A stretch of DNA of 64,000 nt from Candidatus Nanopelagicus abundans (GTDB lineage Bacteria > Actinomycetota > Actinomycetes > Nanopelagicales > Nanopelagicaceae): positions 620,001-684,000 of the forward strand of contig NZ_CP016779.1 in assembly GCF_002288305.1 (NCBI RefSeq), given 5' to 3'. Below, one piece after another: positions 31,206-33,350 of the stretch (position 1 is its first letter; each line of letters opens with the position of its first letter). The notes beneath the pieces were generated by a model. That model saw nothing but the letters and a program-made list of their open reading frames with translations, was not told the origin of the DNA and did not search any database. The translations under genes and the position numbers were made by a program.

Positions 31206-31790
31206 CTAATTATTAGGCATTGCGTCGGGGTTGATGACAGCCTCCGCCACAGCCTTCATTGAGATTCGCCGGTCCATTGCAGTCCGCTGAATCCACGAGT
31301 AACTCTCAGGTTCAGATAAGTTCATGGCCTTCATAAGTATGCCCTTAGCTCGATCAATAACCTTTCTAGTTTCAAGCCTTTCATAAACATCTGCTACTTC
31401 ATTTTCAAGCAGCTTCATTTGCCGATGCCTACTTATTGCTATCTCAATGGCAGGAATTAGATCATCGAGTGAGAAGGGTTTAACAACGTAAGCCATTACG
31501 CCAGCATCCCTGGCTCGTTCAACTAACTCACGCTGACTAAATGCAGTCAACATTAATACTGGAGCGATTGGAATAATTTGTTCCGCGGCTGTTATTCCAT
31601 CAACTACTGGCATCTTTACATCTAATATTGCAAGATCAGGTTTGAACTCTTTTGCAAGTTCAATTGCTATTGCGCCGTTTTCTGCTTGTGCCACTACCTC
31701 ATAGCCAGCCTCAGTTAACATTTCAACTAAATCTAACCGAATGATAGTTTCATCCTCGGCAACAAGCACTCTTACTTTTTGATTATTCAT
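31206..31790 (-). CDS. pdtaR: ANTAR-domain response regulator (PdtaR-like)
   Basis: Receiver plus RNA-binding ANTAR domain; the family binds paired hairpins in nascent RNA to block terminators. The 194-aa protein has a receiver at about 5-118 with acidic pocket E12-D13, phosphoacceptor D57 (ILDVKMP) and K103-type KPF. The ANTAR helices are at about 130-185 (RKVIDRAKGILMKAMNLSEPESY). Its usual partner is a PdtaS-type kinase, not present here. The ATG begins one base after the mature 3' end of the upstream tRNA, with no room for a Shine-Dalgarno. The gene product is clear; its targets are unknown. Confidence 0.92.
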   Translation of the reverse strand: MNNQKVRVLVAEDETIIRLDLVEMLTEAGYEVVAQAENGAIAIELAKEFKPDLAILDVKMPVVDGITAAEQIIPIAPVLMLTAFSQRELVERARDAGVMAYVVKPFSLDDLIPAIEIAISRHRQMKLLENEVADVYERLETRKVIDRAKGILMKAMNLSEPESYSWIQRTAMDRRISMKAVAEAVINPDAMPNN

Positions 31791-31791
31791 G

Positions 31792-31864
31792 TGCCTCGAG
31801 TCGGATTCGAACCGACACTATACGGTTTTTGAGACCGTCCTCTCTACCGTTGGAGTACCGAGGC
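31792..31864 (-). tRNA. tRNA with anticodon CAA (Leu by anticodon), short variable loop
   Basis: The minus strand folds as a 73-base cloverleaf: acceptor GCCTCGG/TCGAGGC, D-stem CTC/GAG, anticodon stem ACGGT/ACCGT with loop CTCAAAA, a five-base variable loop ATAGT, T-stem GTCGG/CCGAC with TTCGAAT loop, and discriminator A. The anticodon CAA reads UUG (Leu). Bacterial tRNA-Leu normally has a long variable arm; this one is class I. CCA is not encoded. It lies between pyk and the ANTAR regulator. Confidence 0.9.
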
Positions 31865-31907: not shown

Positions 31908-33350
31908 TTACTTTCGGTAAGCCGCAGCGACTCCGCTTACAGCATCACCAATTTTATGAACGCGCATCGCATTTATAGAACCAGGGATTCCAGGAGGTGA
32001 ACCTGCAACGATTAAAACTAAATCACCAATTTTTACTCGTTTAGATTCAATCAAGATGGTATCTACCTGCATAACCATTTCATCAGTGTGATTAACTGTT
32101 GCGGTAAGTAGTGATTCAACTCCCCACGAAAGAGCTAATCTGTTATAGGTACCAATTTCAGGAGTAAGTGCCAGCATTGGAATAGGTGATCGAAGCCGCG
32201 ACATTCGCCTTGCTGAATCACCACTTTGCGTAAAGGCAACTAAATACTTTGCACCAACTGTTAAACCAACCTCAGTTGCAGCTTTTGTAATTGCGCCAGC
32301 TTTTGTAGCTGGTGAGTGTTTAAGGGGAGGAATTTGATCTAATGCCACATCTTCAGTTCGCTCAATAATTCTTGCCATAATTTTTACTGAATCAATTGGA
32401 AAATCACCAACGCTTGTTTCGCCAGATAACATAAGAGCATCTGCTCCATCTAGTACTGCATTAGCGCAATCAGTAGCCTCAGCCCTAGTTGGTTGAGAGT
32501 TACTAATCATTGAGTCAAGCATCTGTGTTGCGACAATTACTGGTTTTGCTGACTCTCTTGCCATCGTAATACATCTTTTTTGGACCATTGGCACATCTTC
32601 AATTGGTAATTCAACTCCAAGATCTCCTCGGGCAACCATAATCCCATCGAATGCATCAACTATTTCCTGCAGATTTTCAACGGCCTGAGGTTTTTCAATC
32701 TTGGCGATAACTGGAACTTTAACTCCAACCTCATCCATAATCTTATGAATATCCTTAATGTCTGCAGCGTTTCTCACAAATGAGAGCGCAATAAAGTCTG
32801 CGCCAGCCTTTAGTCCCCAGCGTAAATCTGCAATATCTTTTTCCGATAAAGCCGGCAATGAAACTGCAACACCTGGAAGATTGATACCTTTGTTATTACT
32901 TACCATTCCAGGTTGAATTACCTTGGTAATTACATCATTACCCTTAACCTGAACCACTTGAACAGATACTTTTCCATCATCAATCATGATTGCATCTCCA
33001 GCTTTGCAATCTCCTGGCAGACCTTTGTAAGTTGTACTTACCTTATCTTTTGTACCTGCAACATCATCAGTTGTAATAGTAAAAGTATCTCCACGTAATA
33101 ATTCATGCGGTCCAGATGAAAATCTACCTAATCGAATCTTTGGTCCTTGCAGATCTACCAAAATTGCAACTTCTTTGTTTGCCTTTTTTGCAGCTGCTCT
33201 AACTAGATCAAGTCTTTTTTGATGTTCATCATGACCACCATGAGAAAGATTTAATCTGGCCATATTCATGCCAGCATCAATTAACTCAGTGATTTTTTCA
33301 ATTGATTCAACTGCAGGACCCAATGTGCATACAATTTTCGCGCGGCGCAT
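31908..33350 (-). CDS. pyk: Pyruvate kinase
   Basis: Converts phosphoenolpyruvate and ADP to pyruvate and ATP. The 480-aa protein starts MRRAKIVCTLGPA and has the barrel segments MNMARLNLSHG and ILVDLQGPKIRLG. The catalytic signature VIAKIEKPQAVENL and MVARGDLGVE are present, followed by the C-terminal allosteric domain. It is 9 bases behind gltD, so it may be co-transcribed with glutamate synthase, linking carbon flux to nitrogen assimilation; this pairing is inferred from spacing only. Confidence 0.97.
   Translation of the reverse strand: MRRAKIVCTLGPAVESIEKITELIDAGMNMARLNLSHGGHDEHQKRLDLVRAAAKKANKEVAILVDLQGPKIRLGRFSSGPHELLRGDTFTITTDDVAGTKDKVSTTYKGLPGDCKAGDAIMIDDGKVSVQVVQVKGNDVITKVIQPGMVSNNKGINLPGVAVSLPALSEKDIADLRWGLKAGADFIALSFVRNAADIKDIHKIMDEVGVKVPVIAKIEKPQAVENLQEIVDAFDGIMVARGDLGVELPIEDVPMVQKRCITMARESAKPVIVATQMLDSMISNSQPTRAEATDCANAVLDGADALMLSGETSVGDFPIDSVKIMARIIERTEDVALDQIPPLKHSPATKAGAITKAATEVGLTVGAKYLVAFTQSGDSARRMSRLRSPIPMLALTPEIGTYNRLALSWGVESLLTATVNHTDEMVMQVDTILIESKRVKIGDLVLIVAGSPPGIPGSINAMRVHKIGDAVSGVAAAYRK

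Follow-up and report, generated by a model that had tools for sequence, protein, structure and literature searches.

A type I tRNA-Leu(CAA) as the only leucine tRNA for UUG in Candidatus Nanopelagicus abundans, and probable exchange of type I and type II forms at the actinobacterial pdtaR locus

The window analysed here, a stretch of 64,000 nucleotides of the Candidatus Nanopelagicus abundans genome, encodes on its minus strand a tRNA-Leu(CAA) with a short variable loop (31792-31864), which is a genuine tRNA and the sole tRNA-Leu for UUG in this genome. We consider it very probable that this only UUG-reading tRNA-Leu represents a conserved type I form which is most likely charged by leucyl-tRNA synthetase (LeuRS), that UUG still specifies leucine, and that genes of the two types have been exchanged at pdtaR.

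The 73-nt tRNA, in which CCA is not encoded, has the sequence GCCTCGGTACTCCAACGGTAGAGAGGACGGTCTCAAAAACCGTATAGTGTCGGTTCGAATCCGACTCGAGGCA. It was called as tRNA-Leu(CAA) by ARAGORN (31791-31864, minus strand) and matched by Rfam model RF00005 at 31792-31864 of the minus strand (57.6 bits, E=3.7e-11), in agreement with a sequence-only reading of the window, which had reported a tRNA with anticodon CAA, a five-base variable loop and discriminator A. The anticodon (positions 34-36; 31829-31831, minus strand) is contained in the loop CUCAAAA, and the discriminator A73 is located at 31792 of the same strand. The variable loop, AUAGU (positions 44-48; 31817-31821, minus strand), is 5 nt long, with U48 pairing with A15, as opposed to the arm of at least 10 nt with its own stem that characterizes class II tRNAs. 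The sequence-only reading had also described all stems as canonical, which holds for the acceptor (7/7), anticodon (5/5) and T (5/5) stems, but not for the D stem. The latter is represented by three pairs (C10-G25, U11-A24 and C12-G23) and a C13.A22 mismatch, which is common to the type I tRNA-Leu of this lineage, within a D arm (31840-31855, minus strand) that further includes A14 A15, G18G19 and U20 A20a G21.

The genome consists of a single contig of 1,161,863 bases (99.9% complete) with 39 tRNA matches, among which the leucine set comprises type I tRNAs with CAA and UAA anticodons and type II tRNAs with UAG (11-nt arm) and GAG (15-nt arm) anticodons. The gene at 31792-31864 is the only tRNA-Leu(CAA), and the only tRNA-Leu(UAA) (C1:977923-977995, L025) exhibits the same core; as both are type I, decoding of UUA and UUG depends on type I tRNAs in this genome. 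A second, class II tRNA-Leu(CAA), for which the sequence-only reading had recommended a search, was absent from the tRNAs of the genome. A single protein scored above the TIGR00396 cut-off for LeuRS. Separately, a tRNA-like gene called Gly(acc) (L039, C1:249547-249618; 34.7 bits), with a poorly paired anticodon stem, is possibly a pseudogene or an odd tRNA.

The tRNA is flanked by a gene encoding a pdtaR-like ANTAR response regulator (31206-31790, minus strand), which served as the syntenic marker, and by the upstream pyruvate kinase gene pyk (31908-33350), which lies on the same minus strand and is separated from the tRNA 5' end by 43 nt. A tRNA-Leu(CAA) upstream of pdtaR, as present in the window, was observed at 80/80 named genome loci and at 97/101 further loci of the class (177/181 overall), which confirms the suggestion of the sequence-only reading that other actinobacteria have a similar tRNA here. 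Among these 177 tRNAs, 112 were type I and 65 were type II. The tRNA is co-directional with pdtaR in the Nanopelagicaceae and divergent from it in most other families. Both types were found inside several families and, judged by record name, within Streptomyces (type I at L149, L161 and L171; type II at L163, L174 and L186). On a single-gene PdtaR tree, at least 23 switches of type were required, a number that is approximate given the short tree. From this observed distribution, we infer repeated replacement of type I by type II genes, and vice versa, at the pdtaR locus. The possibility that, in Streptomyces, a type II CAA paralogue already residing in type I genomes had taken over was rejected, as no close type II paralogue was found.

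Furthermore, the ATG of pdtaR begins 1 nt after A73 of the tRNA in the window (31788-31795). The same arrangement, with pdtaR starting exactly 1 nt past A73 (A73-C-AUG or GUG), was found at 45 of 50 distinct Nanopelagicales loci (L049-L086 and L109-L124, covering the genus Nanopelagicus and most of the family), whereas the remaining five exhibited a pdtaR leader of 28-50 nt. A scan of most tRNAs in the genome revealed no other with a following gene as close. As pyk precedes the tRNA in the same orientation at a distance of 43 nt, no terminator-like site was found in this 43-nt interval, and pdtaR starts 1 nt past A73, the arrangement suggests that 3' processing of the tRNA would leave the pdtaR message with a one-base, near-leaderless 5' end. 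This proposed release resembles tRNA punctuation in mitochondria.

Comparison of 120 distinct sequences (72 type I and 48 type II) revealed that the core of the tRNA is linked to the type of its variable loop. All 72 type I sequences carry A9 and C12-G23, with C (69) or A (3) at position 13, whereas G9 and G12-C23 are present in 47/48 and G13 in 48/48 of the type II sequences; position 22 is A in all 120. The sole exception, L095 (G089), is an intermediate tRNA-Leu(CAA) that combines A9, C12-G23 and G13 with a 15-nt arm. The usual type I loop is NCAGU. Standard pairs filled 98.9% of the 441 pair cells in a set of 21 divergent type I homologues, in which 88 double-sided changes were counted, compared with 21.3 +/- 4.0 in shuffles, while the tertiary pair 15-48 covaries among type I sequences (A-U in 101, G-C in 10, mixed in none). 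Since the compensatory changes exceed those of shuffles and position 15 covaries with position 48, conservation of the type I fold goes beyond chance.

A total of 246 genomes sampled over the phylum were searched with a covariance model built from type I sequences, with a threshold of 70 bits. Approximately 70 of these genomes, including members of other classes, contained a match of at least 70 bits. All such matches that were read represent tRNA-Leu, mostly with UAA or CAA anticodons and, in one family, UAG; one locus called Phe by ARAGORN proved to be a type I Leu form with a one-base anticodon misframe. Below the gap at 70 bits, mostly Met, Lys and other tRNAs were found, along with one more type I tRNA-Leu at 67.9 bits. 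The UAG-bearing family (f59; L483, L485, L486 and L489) extends the type I form to the CUN box. In one Streptomyces genome, the single CAA tRNA is type I and the UAA tRNA is type II, and no class II CAA tRNA was found among its tRNAs; conversely, genome G079 encodes a type II CAA and a type I UAA tRNA. These opposite combinations indicate that the CAA and UAA isoacceptors switch type independently.

The consensus type I sequence also matched 148 phage records, mostly annotated as tRNA-Leu. A9, C12-G23, C13.A22 and a CAGU-like loop were present in examples from phages of Prochlorococcus, Pseudomonas, Erwinia, Lactobacillus, Corynebacterium and Escherichia, while the core or the loop varies in Bonray (CAA), StarPlatinum and Mx1. 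A search of E. coli chromosomes with the type I tRNA of an Erwinia phage returned no match. On a Tsukamurella tyrosinosolvens plasmid (L528), a type I Leu(CAA) gene adjoins a site-specific integrase gene, a neighbour through which the tRNA could possibly be moved or replaced. Another plasmid, pA of the cyanobacterium Kovacikia minuta (L525), carries a tRNA array in which several tRNA-Leu (CAA, UAG and CAG) have short loops.

With regard to origin, the type I form may have arisen many times from type II genes that simply lost their arm, with subsequent core changes demanded by a 5-nt loop, rather than through takeover of the locus by a distinct type I lineage. The 23 or more switches on the PdtaR tree and the intermediate L095, with its type I positions 9 and 12-23, G13 and 15-nt arm, agree with such convergence, which we regard as a tentative possibility somewhat short of even chances. 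Against it stand the otherwise perfect linkage of core and loop, the NCAGU loop that type I sequences have kept in common and the occurrence of the same form in phages of unrelated hosts, and for these three reasons the spread of a lineage fits better than convergence. A more specific proposal, namely that type I tRNA-Leu forms a distinct lineage, carried in part by phages and governed by core rules of its own, which moves between genomes and has repeatedly replaced type II because it lacks an arm that some tRNA-targeting toxins or nucleases use as a handle, appears unlikely when taken as a whole. The mycobacterial toxin MenT3 is known to require that tRNA-Ser has its long arm (PMC11541572).

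Irrespective of its origin, the CAA tRNA retains the leucine determinants A73, A15-U48, G18G19 and A20a (set taken from PMC9976931). Within the genome, the D-loop end A20a-G21-A22 is restricted to the four Leu tRNAs, as is the fuller combination of A14A15..GGYA-G21-A22 with U48 and A73. E. coli LeuRS requires A73, A15-U48, G18G19 and A20a, and variants without the long arm are still active; human mt-tRNA-Leu(UUR) is also recognized without a long arm (PMC9976931). In ten actinobacterial type I tRNAs, A15-U48 is replaced by G15-C48, indicating that this determinant is not strict there. The cell's one LeuRS would most likely leucylate the CAA tRNA through A73 and the elbow and core (A15-U48, G18G19 and A20a), with no need for the absent long arm as a contact, while the alternative core (A9, C12-G23 and C13.A22) would suit a five-base loop and take the place of the type II core (G9, G12-C23 and G13.A22).

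Leucylation of the type I CAA tRNA by an ordinary LeuRS is the best reading, because the determinants are kept, the genome encodes a single LeuRS, type II tRNAs interchange with type I at the same locus and the arm is dispensable in E. coli. The same combination of determinants, syntenic interchange, single LeuRS and published E. coli data favours one of the two options offered by the sequence-only reading, namely that LeuRS accepts a type I tRNA-Leu. A special LeuRS was rejected as the cause, as type I tRNAs occur both with and without a one-piece LeuRS match; the association of such a match with type is weak (32 type I and 6 type II with a match versus 23 and 16 without, p=0.02, uncorrected for kinship).

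The meaning of UUG was examined by aligning gltB, gltD, leuS, pyk and pdtaR with 24-64 orthologues, those of the closest loci being left out, a column being regarded as conserved at 85% conservation or above. The alignments provided 132 UUA columns and a small sample of 17 UUG columns; UUG is rare in this genome. The mean leucine fraction was 0.76 for UUA and UUG, compared with 0.76-0.80 for CUN codons, and conserved columns represented leucine in 81/83 cases for UUA and 11/13 for UUG. The two other conserved UUG columns were valine, a substitution also observed at CUN codons, and UUG was not found to mark sites conserved for another amino acid. As UUA and UUG columns carry leucine about as frequently as CUN columns do, and conserved UUG columns are mostly leucine, UUG remains a leucine codon and the genetic code is unchanged.

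The second option of the sequence-only reading, charging by another synthetase with UUG recoded or ambiguous, could draw on a variable loop that is atypical for a textbook bacterial tRNA-Leu and on the single CAA anticodon of the genome, but it is contradicted by the codon test, by the retained leucine determinants and by syntenic orthologues that are ordinary type II tRNA-Leu(CAA), and was rejected as extremely improbable. Equally negligible is the notion that the CAA tRNA is a pseudogene or degenerating and that UUG is actually read by the UAA tRNA: wobble and the rarity of UUG would permit this, yet most loci of the genus carry exactly the same sequence, and across the phylum it is conserved with compensatory changes.

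Bacterial tRNA-Leu is described as class II in reviews and tRNA-seq pipelines (PMC9976931, PMC7609411), and long variable regions are assigned to Leu, Ser and Tyr tRNAs (PMC6297222). The present findings bear on this rule, UUA and UUG being read here only by type I tRNAs, of a form frequently encountered both in a major phylum and among phages of several phyla. Individual type I genes are carried in databases simply as tRNA-Leu, and it is implied in one paper that not all M. tuberculosis tRNA-Leu have a long loop; a literature search, extending to little of the subscription literature, returned partial mentions only and no description of the class, the core rule or the switching. Repeated natural swaps of two tRNA architectures at one locus, for the same amino acid, make the purpose of the long arm testable, and since phages of E. 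coli K-12 carry the type I form, a laboratory test would be easy.

Compared with known systems, the window tRNA resembles bacterial type II tRNA-Leu, such as those of E. coli and the Streptomyces bldA tRNA-Leu(UAA), in A73, A14, A15-U48, G18G19 and A20a, in a 3-bp D stem with 13.A22 unpaired, in its leucine codon and, in many species, in genomic place; it differs from them in having a 5-nt loop rather than an arm of 11-17 nt, and A9, C12-G23 and C13 rather than G9, G12-C23 and G13. Mammalian mitochondrial tRNA-Leu(UUR) likewise lacks a long arm and is leucylated by mitochondrial LeuRS through A73 and A14 (PMC9976931), but it is mitochondrial with a weak anticodon stem, whereas the tRNA described here is bacterial, is fully paired and has a conserved core. 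The mycobacterial array tRNA-Leu(TAG) (PMC6582537) also originates from an actinobacterium and has a short variable loop, yet is an additional gene gained by horizontal transfer and accompanied by a normal isoacceptor, whereas the window tRNA gene alone serves its codon. Short-loop tRNA-Leu from phages of actinobacteria and of other hosts (Bonray, StarPlatinum, Felix O1-like phages and cyanophage P-RSM6) share A9, C12-G23, C13.A22 and an NCAGU-type loop in most of those read, but are located in phage tRNA arrays and also carry UAA, UAG and GAG anticodons.
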